From positions 1 through 30,098 of the IMG/VR virus record IMGVR_UViG_3300044627_002173: 30,098 bases of DNA, one strand, 5' to 3'. Positions 13,178 to 25,404 of the stretch are shown here, piece by piece. A model generated the notes under the pieces. That model was given only the letters and a program-made list of their open reading frames with translations. It searched no databases and was not told the DNA's origin. How positions within the stretch are numbered: the first letter of the stretch is position 1; each line of letters begins with the position of its first letter. This stretch comes from a virus. The position numbers and the translations under genes are program-made.

Positions 13178-13210
13178 CCCCCCACCCTTTATTGGGTGGG
13201 GGGCTTTTTT
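13178..13210. terminator. Bidirectional intrinsic terminator between convergent operons
   Basis: CCCCCCACCC (13178-13187) pairs perfectly with GGGTGGGGGG (13194-13203) around a 6-nt loop, followed by C and six T on the + strand. On the - strand the stem is followed by a looser T-rich run (TCTTTCTTGTTTT). It ends the rightward structural operon and can also stop leftward transcripts from the integrase, whose stop codon (13189-13191) lies in the loop. Confidence 0.95.
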
Positions 13211-14616
13211 GCGTTAAGGCGGTCTAACATCTCGTCGGGAATGTACAGGTCCGAAGTTATTACCTGAGTTCCTGGCACACGCAGTATCTTGAAGTAGATG
13301 CCTGACTTGATTAGCAACTGCCGGCGCTGCTCTACGTCGGCTGCATTCCACGCATCTGTGAAGGTTTGCCCTGTTTCTTTATAAACCCAACCGGCTTGGG
13401 AGGTCGGTAACCTTTCAAGGGTCGATATCCGAAAATCTATGGCCCTCATTTGCTCTGTAAGACGTTTTCTCACCGTGTCTGAGGTCATTGTACCCAGCAG
13501 GGTACTAATGTCGTCCAGGGCGCGTTTAGCGTCCTCTAATTCGGTTTCGTGGTTTTCGCCCTTACGGAACACCCTTTCGAGGACTTTCCGCTCCCCCACA
13601 GCATCAAGAAACGCTTCCTCAAGCAATTCCTCCACCATTCCCGCTTCCACCATCCCGGTGTGGTTATCCCGGCAATGGTAGTACCGGTAAATGTTCTTCC
13701 CGTAGTTCCTGCGGTACACCCGGTGGAATAAGGGTTGCTCACACTCGAAACACAAAGCGACATTCAGTAGCGGGGATACGTTACGGGTTCTTGATATAGG
13801 CCCGGACTTGCGGAGTTGGACAGCGGCTTGTAGTTGATCCCATTCAGCGGCGTCCAGAACAGGCTCCGAAATGAGGACAGGGAAACCCTCCGCATCCCTG
13901 ACGGTTTCCCCACCGTAGGTGGAATGGCCGAGCAGGTATTTCGCCTGGGTCATTTTGAACAGGGTTTGGGGTGTCCATTTGACCCCTTTGGGGGACGGTA
14001 TGCCGTCCTCGTTGAGCCGGTTGGCTACCGCTTCTACAGCGGCCCCGCCGATCAGTTCAGCGGCGATCCTGCGTATCACAGCCGCCTGTTGTGGGTCAGG
14101 TTGCAACTGCCAGCCACCCGCCGCTAGCTCTACCGGTGTCAGCCCGTAGGGGGCGTGTCCACCGGGCCAGCGCCCCAACTGAACCAGTTTCATCCGGCTT
14201 GCTTTGGTGCGTTCCACAATGGCTTGGGATTCGCCTTCAGCGACTCCTGCGAGGACGTTGGCGACTAGTCTGCCTGTCCAGTTGGACAGGTCTAGTGATT
14301 CGGTGATGCTGACAAGGATTTTGTCGTGGCGCAGCATCCACCCGAAGACCTCGTTCAAAGCGATCACTCTGCGGCTTAGGCGGTCTAGCCGCCAGATAGC
14401 CATGACCTCCCACTCCCCCGCCCTCTCCCCAAACCACGGGGAGAGAGCAGGGGCTTCCATAGGGTGAATGGAGCCGGGGCAGTCAACGTCCTCAGCCCAC
14501 CCCACGATTTCGTGTTCGTGCAGGGCAGACCATTGTTCGATCAGTTCCTTTTGGCGTTCTATGCTGGTGCTTTCCGTTGTGCTGCGGGATAACCGGACTC
14601 TGCCCAAAACCTTCAT
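13189..14616 (-). CDS. int: Serine integrase (large serine recombinase)
   Basis: 475 residues. It catalyses site-specific integration of the phage genome between attP and attB through a serine-DNA intermediate. The catalytic domain covers about residues 1-140: the nucleophile is S10 in RLSRS, with the conserved Arg/Asp motif R76-L-D-R79-L-S-R. The recombinase domain follows with a helix-rich DNA-binding stretch near 175-235. A zinc ribbon near 289-319 has C289-x2-C292 and C315, with H319 where a fourth cysteine is usual. A coiled coil spans about 345-400. Length and N-terminal motif order resemble integrases of Bxb1-type phages. The C-terminal KKPPTQ is encoded by the terminator stem. The ribosome site (GATGGG) is weak. 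Confidence 0.97.
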   Translation of the reverse strand: MKVLGRVRLSRSTTESTSIERQKELIEQWSALHEHEIVGWAEDVDCPGSIHPMEAPALSPWFGERAGEWEVMAIWRLDRLSRRVIALNEVFGWMLRHDKILVSITESLDLSNWTGRLVANVLAGVAEGESQAIVERTKASRMKLVQLGRWPGGHAPYGLTPVELAAGGWQLQPDPQQAAVIRRIAAELIGGAAVEAVANRLNEDGIPSPKGVKWTPQTLFKMTQAKYLLGHSTYGGETVRDAEGFPVLISEPVLDAAEWDQLQAAVQLRKSGPISRTRNVSPLLNVALCFECEQPLFHRVYRRNYGKNIYRYYHCRDNHTGMVEAGMVEELLEEAFLDAVGERKVLERVFRKGENHETELEDAKRALDDISTLLGTMTSDTVRKRLTEQMRAIDFRISTLERLPTSQAGWVYKETGQTFTDAWNAADVEQRRQLLIKSGIYFKILRVPGTQVITSDLYIPDEMLDRLNAKKPPTQ

Positions 14617-15021: not shown

Positions 15022-15323
15022 TTCGGTTGCCTTAATCCCATCTCAGTCGCCCACGTCCGCCTCAACGGCGGCGCCACCACCTCCATTACCGGCGGTTCAG
15101 GGGTTCGGTGTTTCCAATGTGGGATCCAGTCGGTGACCCAGCGGTAATAGCCTGGATGCCAGTTGCTCCATTGTTGCCAAAGCCCTAGTTCCGCGATCAC
15201 CGCGTCGGCCTGCCCGAGATACAACGCCTGGATGTGCCCAGCCAACGCATCCCACGGGTGCCCGTCCCACTGCGATGCCGCGCCGTAAATGGTGACGGCT
15301 ATACGTTCACGCAACTCACTCAT
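15018..15323 (-). CDS. Small hypothetical protein, paralogue of downstream neighbour
   Basis: 101 residues from ATG 15323, part of an ATGAGTGA overlap with the deaminase stop and preceded by AAAGGAA with good spacing; longer readings would start inside the deaminase gene. It shares the LRxRIA, ADAVIxxLGL and YRxVTxW motifs with the next gene and adds a Trp-rich insert and a Pro-rich C-terminal tail. The function is unknown. Confidence 0.7.
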   Translation of the reverse strand: MSELRERIAVTIYGAASQWDGHPWDALAGHIQALYLGQADAVIAELGLWQQWSNWHPGYYRWVTDWIPHWKHRTPEPPVMEVVAPPLRRTWATEMGLRQPK

Positions 15324-15708
15324 CTTCATTTCCTTTCGGCCACACAACCCCGTGAACACCCGCAGCCTGAATAGCCTTATCGCAGGCATAACACGGCTCC
15401 CTAGTCACATACAAAGTTGCACCCACCAAATCCTCCCGGTCGCAATACAACAGTGCGTTCATTTCCGCGTGGACCGCCACACAACGCCCTTCCCCGGTGG
15501 TGTAATCAGAACCCGGAGATACGTTCGATAATCTTCGAGGACAGTCAAAACACCCAGGTGTACCAGCAGGGCTTCCGTTGTAGCCTGTGCCCCGCACCCG
15601 GCGGTCTTTAACAACCACCGCACCGACCTTCGAGCGTTCACAGTCGCTCCTTTCCGATACCGCTTCGGCTATTCCCATGAAGTAGTCATCCCAGCCAGGT
15701 CTGCTCAT
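15316..15708 (-). CDS. Deoxycytidylate (dCMP) deaminase
   Basis: 130 residues. The family converts dCMP to dUMP, feeding dTTP synthesis for phage replication. The zinc site is clear: H80-A-E82 supplies one ligand and the catalytic Glu, and P105-C106-x-x-C109 supplies the two Cys ligands. Extra cysteines near C53 and C56 are typical of the phage branch. It overlaps the upstream gene (ATGA) and belongs with the class II ribonucleotide reductase encoded further upstream as a nucleotide supply module. Confidence 0.93.
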   Translation of the reverse strand: MSRPGWDDYFMGIAEAVSERSDCERSKVGAVVVKDRRVRGTGYNGSPAGTPGCFDCPRRLSNVSPGSDYTTGEGRCVAVHAEMNALLYCDREDLVGATLYVTREPCYACDKAIQAAGVHGVVWPKGNEDE

Positions 15709-18650: not shown

Positions 18651-19022
18651 TCATTTGTTGTTCGGCAGGTACAGGCTGTACTTGCCGTGCTTGTAGAGGT
18701 AGTGTTCACTACCTCTTGGAACCCAGTGCCTACCCTTCGCATCCCTGTCTGCGGAGTTCTCAGCGGGTGTGCCCAAGAACAGGTGAGAAGGGTTGCAGCA
18801 CTTCGGAACATCACATGTGTGGCAGACGAACATCCCAGGAGGGATGTCGCCTACCCACAGTTGGTACGCAGCCCTATGAGCCTGTACCGACTTGCGGCTG
18901 CCGTTGATTTTGAGATAGGCGTAGCGCCTTCCGGACTGGCCTTGAAACAACCAGCATCCGTTCTCGTCCTTAACTAGTCTTCGACGTAGCCGTTCCTCAA
19001 CAGGGATAACCGGATAAGGCAT
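18651..19022 (-). CDS. HNH endonuclease
   Basis: 123 residues from ATG 19022, overlapping the ribonucleotide reductase stop (ATGA). The HNH core is around residues 48-90: an A-H-R-A-A-Y motif, then V-C-H-T-C-D, then [11 protein letters not shown], giving the first His, the Cys pairs that hold the fold, and the Asn and last His. It matches the homing-type HNH_3 class common in phages. The gene sits as an extra between the replication accessory gene and the ribonucleotide reductase, as mobile HNH genes often do. Confidence 0.9.
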
Positions 19023-21043
19023 CAGCGCACCGGGCACCCTCCGGTTCCACAGTCTTCCGAAATACCGTCAGAAACCTGCTTCGCCACTGCTGACTCATAT
19101 TCCCAACGGCTTAACCTTTCATACGGAGACTGTGGCATGGATGCCTCCGGAAATATGGTGCAGCCTTTTAGCCTTCCGGCGAACTGCCGTATCTGCTCTT
19201 CAACATGGTCAGAGCTGTATTGCTGCGGATCAACATTCGCTGTGAAGCTGACAGCGTTGTCAGCCCAATAAGCCTGATACAACGCCTGGAATCGCAGCAT
19301 GTCATGAAGCGGCAGATCGCTGGCAGCCTCCACAATGCTTTCGCCTTCATCCCCGAACCTGTCAGTGACAGCCTGAACAAGTGTGTCCTTTGTGGGGATG
19401 GAGATGACAGCGGTGTTGGCTGCGTACATGCAGTCCTCAACCTCGAACCCGTCAGCCTCGTACTGCTTCAGCATCATCACCTGATCGGGGTCCACCTTCG
19501 ACAACCGCACCCTGCGGATGAAATACTTCGCAAAGATAGGGTGGACTCCCTCAGACACACCAGGCATTTTGGCTATAGTTCCTGTCGGTGCGATGGTGCG
19601 CTTCTTGACCGGGACGGGGATTCGGAGTTCATGGCAGAACGCCGAAGCCGAGTAATCCACCGTTGTTGCAAGCTGATTCAGCAAAGCTTGGAACTCCCGG
19701 CTGTCCGGGGCTTTGGAATACTTCAGCCCCGACATAGCGAGGAATGAGGCAACCCCGAAGTGCCCGACACCGATGCGCCGGTTGCGGTCAAGAACCTCAC
19801 GGGATTTCGGGTCGCCTACAGCGGAGAAGGTGGCCCGGATGAGGAACCGGGTCATCAACTGGTGCGCCTTGTCCATCCCAAAGGTGTCCACTCTGCCGTT
19901 TTCGTCCACGAACCCGGCCAAGTTGACGTGCCCCAGGTTGCACGGCTCCCACGGCTCCAAGGTGATTTCGCCGCAAGGATTGGTGCAGACAACCTCGTTG
20001 GGTTCACCGACGTTGGACAGGGATGAGTCCCAGAACCCCGGTTCTCCGTTGTTCACCATGCCCCGCGATAGGGCTTTCAGTACCCGGGCGGCTAACCATG
20101 CGGAACCTTGCTGGGCCTGATACCAGAACTTGTCATCAACCTCAACACTGATGTTGGTTGTCCAGTGCGACAAAGATTGCTGCTTGATGTCGATGAACTT
20201 TTCGATCTGCGGGTCAGCCCAGTGCATCATTGCCATTCGTGCGGATCGCCGCACACCGCCAGCGACAACGCACTGCGCGATTGCGTGGTCGATTTCCATA
20301 GCGGAGATACCGTCAAGCATTTCGAGGTCAACCGCCAAGCGGTTGAACACCTGCGAAACATCAATCAGCATCTTCGCCAACGGCAAAGGCCCGGAAGCCC
20401 TACCACCAAAGGTTTTCAGCTTGGAGCCTGCGGATCGGACACGGGACACGTCGTACACACGGTTGGTATGTTCGACAACAGGGTTGTAGTGGGTGTCGAT
20501 CAGATCCACTAAGGCGGCAGCCCACCCCTCGCGGGAGTCCTCGATCTTGAACGCCCCGAACCAGTCCGGGTCATAGGTTTCCGACAGCAACCCGGCAGCT
20601 TTCATGTCGTCGTAGTCCGCATGTTCCGGGTCGCAAACGATTTCAACCTTGAGTGCCTGCTTCACCAACGGGTACCGGGACAGATACTTGTTGCTGTAGT
20701 TGGCACCTACCCCGCCGCCCTCCATTAACCGCATGAAGGTGAACTCGAAGTGATCGGCGGGCTCATCGGTCCACCCGGCAACCCAGCAGTTGAACAGGTG
20801 TTCAGCGTTCTTCACACCGGACGCCCACAAGTGCCGGCCAGCGGGCAGGATCTTGAAGTCGAGCATCATGTCGATCAACTGTTGGCGTTCATCCTCAAGC
20901 TGGTAACGCTCATCGACCAAGGCGAGGTTGCCGTCTACTACCCGTTCGACGGTTTGCGGCCAGGTTTCTTTTGTGCCGTCTGGGAGGGTTCGGCTGTAGG
21001 TGCGTTCGTAAACGAGTTGCCCTGTGGGTCCAAAGTTAGTCAT
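19022..21043 (-). CDS. nrdJ: Class II (B12-dependent) ribonucleotide reductase
   Basis: 673 residues from ATG 21043 with GAAAGAG upstream. It reduces ribonucleotides to deoxyribonucleotides with adenosylcobalamin. The active site motif N355-P-C357-G-E359-I carries the thiyl Cys and catalytic Glu; C86 (FNCW) and C368 are the likely redox pair. The C-terminal C665-G-T-G-G-C670 tail is the shuttle pair that accepts electrons from a redoxin. Length and motif spacing fit the monomeric type. The glutaredoxin-like gene at 23303-23548 could reduce it. Confidence 0.96.
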
Positions 21044-23225: not shown

Positions 23226-23319
23226 CTTCTTCACTTTCTTCTGACCAAACATAGTCGTGGATCCGCTCAACCCACTTCGGGAACTCCATACCCACCGTGA
23301 AGTTAATTTCCAAACGCAC
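23215..23319 (-). CDS. Very small acidic protein, 34 residues
   Basis: GTG 23319 has AAGGAG seven bases upstream, inside the end of the redoxin gene, and the frame runs to TAG 23215. It has one aromatic-rich helix (FPKWVERIHDYVW) and an acidic tail (EESEEDAD). The good ribosome site and tight packing support translation. No family is recognised. Confidence 0.55.
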   Translation of the reverse strand: MRLEINFTVGMEFPKWVERIHDYVWSEESEEDAD

Positions 23320-23548
23320 CGATAATCTCCTTCAACTTGTCAGGCTGATAGCCGATAACCGGGTCGAACCCGTCAGCCTCAATAACAGGGGTTGACTTCG
23401 CACCCAACCATCGGGTCAAATAATCTTTTGACACTAGATCGCGGCTGATATCAATAATCTCCGGATCAATCCCCGCATCCCACATCTTGTCAATCACCCG
23501 TTTGCAGGGCAGGCATCCGGGCTGCGTGTAAACAATCACCTGTTTCAT
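23303..23548 (-). CDS. NrdH-like glutaredoxin
   Basis: 81 residues from ATG 23548, overlapping the primase stop (ATGA). It has a thioredoxin-fold order: strand, then C12-L-P-C15 active site, helix, S-T-P-V strand and G-Y-Q-P-D-K-L helix, as in NrdH redoxins. It is expected to pass electrons from thioredoxin reductase to the ribonucleotide reductase. The pairing with a class II enzyme, rather than class Ib, is noteworthy. Confidence 0.92.
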   Translation of the reverse strand: MKQVIVYTQPGCLPCKRVIDKMWDAGIDPEIIDISRDLVSKDYLTRWLGAKSTPVIEADGFDPVIGYQPDKLKEIIGAFGN

Positions 23549-24087
23549 TTCATCCTTTCGATTAAAGCGTTCCTGCCGTGATTGACAACCAGCGAGTTCA
23601 CGTCATCCCCCGGCGGCATGGGGATGACTTTCGCGTTCGGCAACTGTTCAGCGATGGTTGTTCCGAACTGCTGCCCTGCCGGGTCACCATCGGCCAGCAC
23701 GTACACGTCCCGGTATCCGAGGAACAGGTCGCGGAAGTGTGGTTGCCATACGTGAGCGCCGGCCACTCCTACTGCCGGGATTCCGCACAGGTCGGCGGTT
23801 ATCGCATCTATTTCACCTTCTGTGATCGCCACCGCAGGTGTTTGTTGCATGAGTGCTGCGGTGTTGTATAGGTGCGGTTTGTCGCCTGCCACTGACATGT
23901 ATTTGCCGTGCCCTTGGTGTTCGTGGTTTTGTAGGCATCGGAAACGGATCGCTATAACCCCCGCCGGCCTGAGATACGGGATTGCTAGATATCCGCGAAA
24001 CATTTCATGACCCGGCATTGGATCTTCGACATATCCGAGTTTGTATCTGTCACCGATTGACGGGTTTTGCAGCCCTCTAGTCGTCAA
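23545..24087 (-). CDS. DNA primase, TOPRIM catalytic part
   Basis: 180 residues from TTG 24087. It carries the TOPRIM domain: E90 in A-I-T-E-G-E-I-D-A and D133-G-D135 in L-A-D-G-D-P-A-G bind the metals for primer synthesis. The N-terminal ~75 residues match the small subdomain that precedes TOPRIM in phage primases. The zinc-binding part is a separate ORF upstream, overlapping by 11 bp in the +1 frame. No good ribosome site precedes the TTG, so reinitiation after the upstream stop or a frameshift is likely. Confidence 0.9.
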   Translation of the reverse strand: MTTRGLQNPSIGDRYKLGYVEDPMPGHEMFRGYLAIPYLRPAGVIAIRFRCLQNHEHQGHGKYMSVAGDKPHLYNTAALMQQTPAVAITEGEIDAITADLCGIPAVGVAGAHVWQPHFRDLFLGYRDVYVLADGDPAGQQFGTTIAEQLPNAKVIPMPPGDDVNSLVVNHGRNALIERMK

Positions 24088-24388
24088 ATACTCTGATGCT
24101 GGGCTTGCGGGTAGGCTTTGGTGGTAGCGTTTGGCCGCTTGCAGCAGATAGTGTCTCTGCGATTCGTTTAGCTGATGAATAGTTGATTCCTTTCTGTGTG
24201 GCGATCAGCGTCACCGGGTTGCCTTTGACTCCGCAGCCGAGACAGTTGAAGGCGTCTAGTTGGTAGGAGATTGCGGCTGATTTGATGGAGTCGGGGTGGA
24301 ATGGGCACAGGGTGTGTACCCATTTCTTTCCGTTGTCGGCGGGCGGTTCCCACCCTGGGGTGAGGTATTGGATCGCTTGGGTTATCAA
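24077..24388 (-). CDS. DNA primase, CHC2-type zinc-binding part
   Basis: 103 residues from TTG 24388, with CAGGAAA seven bases upstream. The frame stays open to a TTG at 24508, but the extra 40 residues are very basic and unlike a primase, and members of this family begin about 25 residues before the zinc site. The zinc site is C28-x2-H31-x17-C49-x2-C52, which reads template trinucleotides in DnaG-type primases. The catalytic TOPRIM part follows in another frame. Confidence 0.85.
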   Translation of the reverse strand: MITQAIQYLTPGWEPPADNGKKWVHTLCPFHPDSIKSAAISYQLDAFNCLGCGVKGNPVTLIATQKGINYSSAKRIAETLSAASGQTLPPKPTRKPSIRVFDD

Positions 24389-24494
24389 TGGTGTTTTCCT
24401 GTGTTTGTTGTGTCGCCTGTCAGGGTTTGTCCAATACGTTTTGAGGTTTCCTTTGTATCTTGTGTGTTTTTGCCATTTGAATCTGCCCCTGTGG

Positions 24495-25139
24495 TTACCC
24501 AATGTCAAGTAAATGACGTAAGGCTAGTTCGGCTTGTTGAGGTACTACACCGTTCCCTAGTAGTTTGAGTTTCGCACCGTAGGGGATGTTTATGTCTGTA
24601 ACCCATCCTTTTGGTAGTCCCATCATCCATTCGGAAAATGCTGCGTTGAGTCGCGGTTTTCCGTTTTTGTTGGGTTCGGTGGGTTGTGGCGCTGGCCGGG
24701 TCAGTTGCTCCCAGCGTCGGATCGCAGGTTCGTACTTGCCCCACTGCGCTTCAGGAAAGTGGTAGGTGACCGCTTCAATGCCAGGACTATTACGGCGCAG
24801 GCCGGATTCTGAGCTGTCTCCATGCCTAACCCGGGGCGTCGGTAGAAGTGCGACGGCTGTGCGTAAATCCATACCGCCGGTACCATGCTTGCCGGCCCCT
24901 GTGCTGTCAGATGTTCGAGGAGTCGGTAAGCAAGAAGAAAAGTCGCTCCCTTCGATGCGGGGCTCCGGCGTCGGAAGCTCGTACAGAACACCACCTGACA
25001 TCGAACCCGTCTTCGGCACAGTCCCGCAAAACTGTTCCGAACCCCATAGACCTGTGCCCTGCCACGTTCTCAAGGAACGTGTATCTGGGTCGAAGTACGC
25101 GAACGGCTTCCCTGATGTAAGGCCACAAGTGTCTTTCAT
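24495..25139 (-). CDS. Methyltransferase C-terminal / LPTP-motif protein
   Basis: 214 residues from ATG 25139, which has an AAAAGGAG ribosome site six bases upstream, inside the N-terminal methyltransferase gene. Three L-P-T-P motifs (residues 55, 71, 99) mark the target-recognition region found in actinobacterial and phage cytosine methyltransferases. Residues 166-184 (FSEWMMGLP) and G195-N-G-V-V-P200-Q-Q-A match the C-terminal motif X region that completes the methyltransferase fold. The first 77 residues are encoded in a 233-bp stretch also used, in another frame, by motifs VI-VIII of the upstream gene. It probably pairs with that polypeptide. Confidence 0.75.
   Translation of the reverse strand: MKDTCGLTSGKPFAYFDPDTRSLRTWQGTGLWGSEQFCGTVPKTGSMSGGVLYELPTPEPRIEGSDFSSCLPTPRTSDSTGAGKHGTGGMDLRTAVALLPTPRVRHGDSSESGLRRNSPGIEAVTYHFPEAQWGKYEPAIRRWEQLTRPAPQPTEPNKNGKPRLNAAFSEWMMGLPKGWVTDINIPYGAKLKLLGNGVVPQQAELALRHLLDIG
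24498..24510 (+). promoter_or_regulatory. Stoperator-like repeat (CCCAATGTCAAGT)
   Basis: An exact core with a CCCAA flank at the methyltransferase/primase junction. It overlaps the end of the methyltransferase C-terminal ORF and has the same orientation as the other copies. Confidence 0.75.
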
Positions 25140-25404
25140 CGTTTTCTCCTTTTCGTTTCCCTGCTGCACTGAATGGTTGGCATGGGTAGCCTCCCACCAG
25201 AACGTCAACCTCAAGCAGCGGTTTCCAGTTAAACCAATTGATTTGTTTTATGTCCCCCAAGTTGGGTACGTCGGGGAACCTTTCGGCAAGCAGAGTTGAA
25301 GGGTGTTTGTCGAACTCAGCGAACCAAGCCAGTTCGCCTCCTAAGACTTTATGCACAGACATGTCTAAGCCGCCGTAGCCTGTGCAGAGACTTCCTATCC
25401 TCAA
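24907..25404 (-). CDS. DNA (cytosine-5) methyltransferase, N-terminal part
   Basis: 165 residues from TTG 25404 with AGGAG eight bases upstream. It has the SAM-binding motif I (L-C-x-G-Y-G-G-L-D), the catalytic P74-C75 in motif IV, the E112-N-V motif VI and an R-x-S-D-A-G-A-P-H-R-R-E-R motif VIII. The target-recognition and motif X parts are absent, and the frame ends shortly after motif VIII; they are found in the overlapping ORF at 24495-25139. The two products could form one enzyme, possibly protecting phage DNA from host restriction. Confidence 0.9.
   Translation of the reverse strand: MRIGSLCTGYGGLDMSVHKVLGGELAWFAEFDKHPSTLLAERFPDVPNLGDIKQINWFNWKPLLEVDVLVGGYPCQPFSAAGKRKGENDERHLWPYIREAVRVLRPRYTFLENVAGHRSMGFGTVLRDCAEDGFDVRWCSVRASDAGAPHRRERLFFLLTDSSNI

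Follow-up and report, generated by a model that had tools for sequence, protein, structure and literature searches.

The window analysed here, a virus record of 30,098 bases, very probably encodes a two-subunit cytosine-5 DNA methyltransferase whose second chain (beta) arises by internal initiation within the gene of the first (alpha). Across the family, both reading frames of the shared DNA are under constraint, the start sites of beta are recurrent, and the conserved motifs are partitioned between the two chains. Several points are inferred: that both chains are translated, associate with one another and are both needed, that the LPTP repeats recognize the target, that a methyl group is transferred to C5 of cytosine, and what role the enzyme plays. 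No expression, proteomic or methylation data stand behind the two-chain reading.

According to the proposed scheme, alpha would provide the SAM site together with the catalytic motifs PCQ and ENV, and would stop just past motif VIII. Ribosomes would also start within the alpha message, at ATG 25139, and produce beta in the +1 frame. The variable region of beta with its LPTP repeats is presumed to set the target, and its motifs IX and X would complete the fold and the cofactor pocket. Alpha and beta may then associate into one enzyme methylating the phage DNA, probably as a protection against host restriction.

Organization of the gene pair

The alpha chain (ORF1, 24907–25404, minus strand) has a TTG start and 165 amino acids and carries C5-methyltransferase motifs I–VIII, with the stop 11 codons past the RER of motif VIII. 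Its residues 1–162 match the first half of PF00145 (E 1.1e-31), and it also matches phrog_363 (E 1.1e-61). Motifs I, IV (PCQ), VI (ENV) and VIII, expected in this order in a C5-cytosine DNA methyltransferase, are all present, PCQ and ENV being invariant in alignment A1; the assignment of the SAM-binding and catalytic motifs to this frame in the initial annotation is thus borne out.

The beta chain (ORF2, 24495–25139, minus strand) starts with ATG at 25139 in the +1 frame and comprises 214 amino acids: an alternative-frame N-terminal segment, LPTP repeats forming the variable (target) region, and motifs IX and X. Residues 1–213 match phrog_1008 (E 1.8e-63). The repeats and motif X (GNGVVPQQA) had been recognized before, and both are confirmed; motif IX (LNAAFSEWMMGLPKGWVT), which had gone unmentioned, is also there. 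The part of beta that holds WGKYEPAIRRWE, motif IX and motif X (24495–24755, minus strand) was compared in alignment A2, where the C-terminal 86 amino acids of ORF2 are 52–70% identical to single-frame relatives. The succession of a variable region and motifs IX and X is therefore fulfilled by ORF2. Alpha of the window is incomplete alone, since motifs IX and X sit in beta.

The two frames share 233 bp (24907–25139, minus strand), corresponding to ORF1 codons 89–165 and ORF2 residues 1–77, and the wobble bases of ORF1 are the second codon positions of ORF2. ENV (motif VI) and ASDAGAPHRRER (motif VIII) lie inside the overlap, and PCQ (motif IV) lies upstream of it. This agrees with the earlier claim that alpha motifs VI–VIII and the first 77 residues of the partner are read from the same DNA; the coordinates, starts and overlap length given at that time are exact to the base. 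The proposed ribosome site AAAAGGAG (25146–25153, minus strand) was likewise found where it had been placed, within the alpha codons for KRKGE and six bases before the ATG. The start codon itself (25137–25139, minus strand) is formed from GAT GAA of alpha (NDE). At the junction (24907–24947, minus strand), the same DNA gives the alpha tail RLFFLLTDSSNI, ended by the stop, and the beta LPTP repeat SSCLPTPRTSD, with RLFFLLTD in ORF1 and SSCLPTP in ORF2 having common DNA.

Directly upstream of the pair is an ORF for recombination endonuclease VII (PF02945; 25422–25919, minus strand). A CHC2 zinc-ribbon primase-type ORF with a TTG start (24077–24508, minus strand) shares 14 bp with the 3′ end of ORF2, and the rest of this primase may sit in the next ORF (23545–24087). 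A B12-dependent ribonucleotide reductase and a glutaredoxin-like protein are encoded at 19022–21043 and 23303–23548 (minus strand), and the block with the reductase also contains a deaminase (15316–15708) and a serine recombinase (13189–14616).

Integrity of the split

Contigs from three other metagenomes (L007, L008 and L009) match the window without a single difference across the 910 nt that make up the pair, so the split is not an assembly error. A recent inactivating frameshift leading to a pseudogene, or a sequencing or assembly indel, might be supposed from the continuous-frame relatives in Wachhund, Graduation and CheeseTouch and from the simple break known in phage Jarcob. Such an origin is scarcely credible, however, given the identical DNA of the three contigs, the recurrence of the +1 layout in 74 classed viral and 12 bacterial loci and in many isolate genomes annotated with two genes, and a further contig (L010) whose difference in the middle region leaves both frames intact. 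The view of the initial annotation that this is not a simple disruptive frameshift is upheld by the identical contigs together with the recurring layout, which rule out simple disruption of the gene. A plain frameshift in the window, suggested by the 'fused' relatives (Wachhund, CheeseTouch, Graduation), was also rejected after frame maps had put the starts of their LPTP repeats in the +1 frame too.

Compared with positions 24495–25139 of the window, L010 (468–1247) has a near-identical alpha and near-identical motifs IX–X around a different LPTP middle, a pattern suggestive of a swapped target-recognition part. In Mycobacterium phage Jarcob (L006, 1245–2415), a different frameshift interrupts alpha near codon 138 (gp69/gp70); this is a probable simple disruption and serves as a contrast case.

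Relatives and the three layouts

The 575 phage records matched in a tblastn search with ORF2 come mostly from phages of Mycobacterium, Gordonia and Arthrobacter. Homologues of residues 1–77 of ORF2, whose existence had been a question from the outset, were found: taken alone, this segment matches 104 phage records and phrog_1008 (E 6e-11). Two genes are already annotated under the match in 36 of 60 phage records sampled evenly down the ORF2 list; in Drake94, for example, gp76 and gp75 overlap by 182 bp. About 200 viral loci, collected with patterns from both halves, and 80 bacterial loci were gathered, which are search samples and not a census. Among 145 distinct N-to-C pairs located with half profiles, 75 had the C half in the +1 frame after a stop, 6 had it in the +2 frame and 57 had it in frame.

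Mapping the frames of motifs IX and X in 159 classed viral loci gave three layouts. Both motifs are in alpha in class i (55 loci); IX is in beta and X is in alpha or not found in class ii (22 loci); both are in beta in class iii, the layout of the window (74 loci). Eight loci fall outside these classes. Of the 106 non-redundant loci with an LPTP-like repeat no more than 75 nt from motif VIII, 105 have the first such repeat in the +1 frame, and later repeats of class i are found in either frame. Since the first repeat is in +1 in all three layouts, the 'fused' enzymes also carry a nested +1 frame over the same codons. A +1 beta frame indeed runs over these alpha codons in nearly all loci, the apparently fused ones included, and all 34 betas of alignment A4, drawn from the three layouts, match phrog_1008. 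The initial annotation had held that single-frame homologues lacking any relative of residues 1–77 would refute the two-chain interpretation. Homologues with a single frame do exist, yet the relative of residues 1–77 is kept in them.

In six loci (L073, L076, L077, L079, L102 and L106), motifs IX/X are in +2 and the first LPTP-like repeat, in those having one, is in +1, which could reflect a broken beta, an assembly error or a further frame move. Another six loci, mostly of Streptomyces (L227, L233, L256, L266, L274 and L280), have LPTP repeats split between frames, the first in +1 and the later ones in the frame of alpha.

A tree built from 129 alpha N-halves requires no fewer than 9 layout changes, with class iii scattered at several positions within class i and class ii forming almost a single clade. 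This scatter implies that motifs IX and X repeatedly switched frames, with the +1 frame over motifs VI–VIII being retained. A broader interpretation is favoured, with appreciable reservation, in which the family reads one methyltransferase gene in two frames throughout. The +1 beta would always be kept over motifs VI–VIII and supply the first target-recognition repeat; motifs IX, X and the later repeats would have moved between frames some six to nine times or more; and even the 'fused' phage and actinobacterial enzymes would encode a nested, unannotated subunit.

Two rival accounts of the pair were also weighed. ORF1 and ORF2 could both be real proteins with beta acting apart from methylation, for instance as an inhibitor or regulator, or pairing with another alpha. 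The class-i beta, without IX and X and nested in a nearly complete alpha, lends this some support, but the beta of the window has the very motifs IX and X that are missing from its alpha, and a separate function is very unlikely. The second account is a programmed +1 frameshift near the end of ORF1 that yields a full-length ORF1–ORF2 fusion, the internal start being incidental. In the window layout the frames overlap past motif VIII, and a single +1 shift there would give a complete I–X enzyme. However, a programmed shift would be expected to show a conserved slippery site, and the 53 class-iii loci have 37 different last-codon/stop combinations, with varying stop contexts and no slippery string common to the junctions compared. 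The same shift would lose motif X in class ii and both IX and X in class i, leaving an incomplete enzyme in two of the three layouts, yet the overlap is kept there. Moreover, the constraint stretches back from the junction over 40–75 codons, as far as the internal start, and a shift would not need this. A fusion made by a +1 shift, which the initial annotation had allowed for, thus remains unsupported and is regarded as improbable; two separate chains are the preferred reading.

Selection on the +1 frame

Constraint was assessed by shuffling synonymous codons within each alpha and counting stops in the other frames; relatedness was ignored in this null. Over alpha codons 88–160, +1 stops numbered 7/3771 in class i against 117 expected and 0/1465 in class ii against 53 expected. 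The corresponding figure in class iii, over codons 111–160, was 51/3347 against 130. In the GTRSGLW subtype, which accounts for most class-iii members, beta seems not to start until about codon 117, leaving the codons before this point free. The 52 bacterial copies had 3/3763 stops (48.8 expected). No comparable depletion was obtained by synonymous shuffling in the +2 frame or in the upstream half. These results reject the possibility that residues 1–77 merely hitch-hike on the conservation of alpha.

Identity in the +1 alternative frame exceeded the null with z of 18 to 56 over codons 111–160. Conservation of the DNA itself raised identity in +2 as well (z up to 39), and therefore the frame-specific evidence consists of the stop depletion and the codon-position pattern. 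Synonymous-site conservation, proposed earlier as a check, was detected: same-codon use in alpha at codons 122–132 was 2.2 times expectation in split and 1.95 times in fused loci, compared with about 1.1 times upstream. The ratio of wobble to first-position mismatches falls in the overlap in all classes (in class iii from 2.2–2.6 to 1.65), as expected where wobble bases are second positions of beta. Selection on both frames of an overlap, the mark of a dual-coding gene pair, is thus met in the relatives by stops, synonymous conservation and codon positions, and the +1 frame is conserved in well over a hundred of them.

Ten loci with later LPTP repeats in frame 0, intended as a negative control, also kept the +1 frame (0/740 stops against 8.1), and no clean negative control group was found among the loci examined. 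In E. coli dcm, most blocks of 50 codons contain +1 stops. It could further be argued that the overlap is constrained as RNA or DNA, by a structure or a regulatory site, and that the +1 frame is open by accident; the nucleotide conservation that lifts +2 identity as well points that way. This explanation is hardly tenable, since only the +1 frame is depleted of stops, from around the start site onward, the mismatch pattern depends on codon position, and the +1 frame runs unbroken into the LPTP repeats and motifs IX and X.

Internal start of beta

Each subtype has its own recurrent position for +1 starts with an SD-like site. Among class-i relatives of the window's type, 34 of 38 have such a start at alpha codons 78–92 (20.5 expected). 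In the GTRSGLW subtype they lie at codons 112–120, in 8 of 13 class-i loci (0.5 expected) and in 22 of 48 class-iii loci (7.0 expected); the conserved start is thus seen in only this part of the latter group. The Asp codon is GAT at 20 of 25 start sites, where the ATG comes from GAT-G of alpha, compared with 92 of 241 other Asp codons. The beta start is not invariant, because among the nearer class-iii relatives of the window L032 has ATC and L127 has ACG. Together with the conserved +1 frame and the two known two-polypeptide enzymes, the recurrent starts support the two-chain methyltransferase, dual-coding overlap and internal ribosome site advanced by the initial annotation, with translation inferred.

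Structural models

The AlphaFold model of beta is weak overall (mean pLDDT 69, pTM 0.41, alignment of 34 rows). Its alternative-frame part (residues 12–54) is predicted as strands with moderate confidence (pLDDT of 64–82 in 10-residue blocks), the part with motifs IX–X (residues 140–190) has a pLDDT of about 90, and the LPTP stretch is uncertain. A fold search with this model returned nothing below E 0.57, only weak DNMT3 matches (best E 0.57), an absence that says little. The folding alignment A3 contains no rows from phage records. For a class-i alpha (L135), residues 1–160 and about 229–288 were modelled confidently and match the M.HhaI fold (Z 23.4), and the LPTP DNA read in frame 0 gives a disordered stretch (pLDDT 33–43). 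Within the limits of shallow alignments, the models fit the suggestion that beta may supply the target region even where alpha has motifs IX and X.

Comparison with known systems

Both ORFs have already been called by phage annotators in many records, and both families bear the name DNA methyltransferase in PHROGs. The actinophage 'DNA methylase' pairs (Drake94 gp76/gp75, Severus 77/76; phrog_363 and phrog_1008) have the same two overlapping ORFs in the same frame relation; they differ in the overlap length and the target repeats and are annotated merely as two DNA methylases. A literature search for overlapping phage methyltransferase genes found no paper on dual coding of this methyltransferase family in the collection searched, which is not proof of absence. 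Two-chain C5-methyltransferases have been described as rare exceptions (M.AquI, M.EcoHK31I), and the present data point to a widespread phage and actinobacterial family whose catalytic motifs are dual-coded with a partner chain. If this is true, a subunit has gone unannotated for many genes now listed as single DNA methylases, and codon-optimised expression of the annotated frame alone would yield a dead enzyme. The family would also be a rare case in which conserved enzyme motifs in two frames, and their movement between frames, can be followed.

M.HhaI and other single-chain C5-methyltransferases (PF00145) have the same fold and motif order in the catalytic half, but they consist of one chain read in one frame. 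Another actinophage methylase, described in a 2025 paper, resembles the window in having an out-of-frame ORF within the methylase gene; there it is an inserted HNH endonuclease, a homing element (PMC11855218), whereas the second frame of the window codes for part of the methylase itself without any insertion.

Among the natural two-chain enzymes, M.AquI has motifs I–VIII in alpha and IX–X in beta, and M.EcoHK31I has I–VIII and X in alpha and IX in beta; artificial splits of M.SssI complemented best when cut between motif VIII and the target region (PMC3404938). The window is similar to M.AquI of Agmenellum quadruplicatum, in which the larger subunit contains I–VIII and the smaller one the distal variable region and IX–X (PMC3404938; no AquI sequence was compared). 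The M.AquI type of partition, with I–VIII on one chain and IX–X on the other, is therefore met. The two ORFs of M.AquI are known to overlap near the junction only; the overlap of the window, unlike theirs, is 233 bp and extends back past motif VI. The second chain of M.EcoHK31I (YGGCCR), reportedly following Lee et al. in 1995, is encoded in an alternative frame of the first. Its motif partition, with X on the larger chain and only IX on the smaller, is that of the class-ii relatives alone and is not met in the window, where IX and X are both in beta and alpha ends after VIII. The window combines the partition of M.AquI with a long overlap of the M.EcoHK31I kind.
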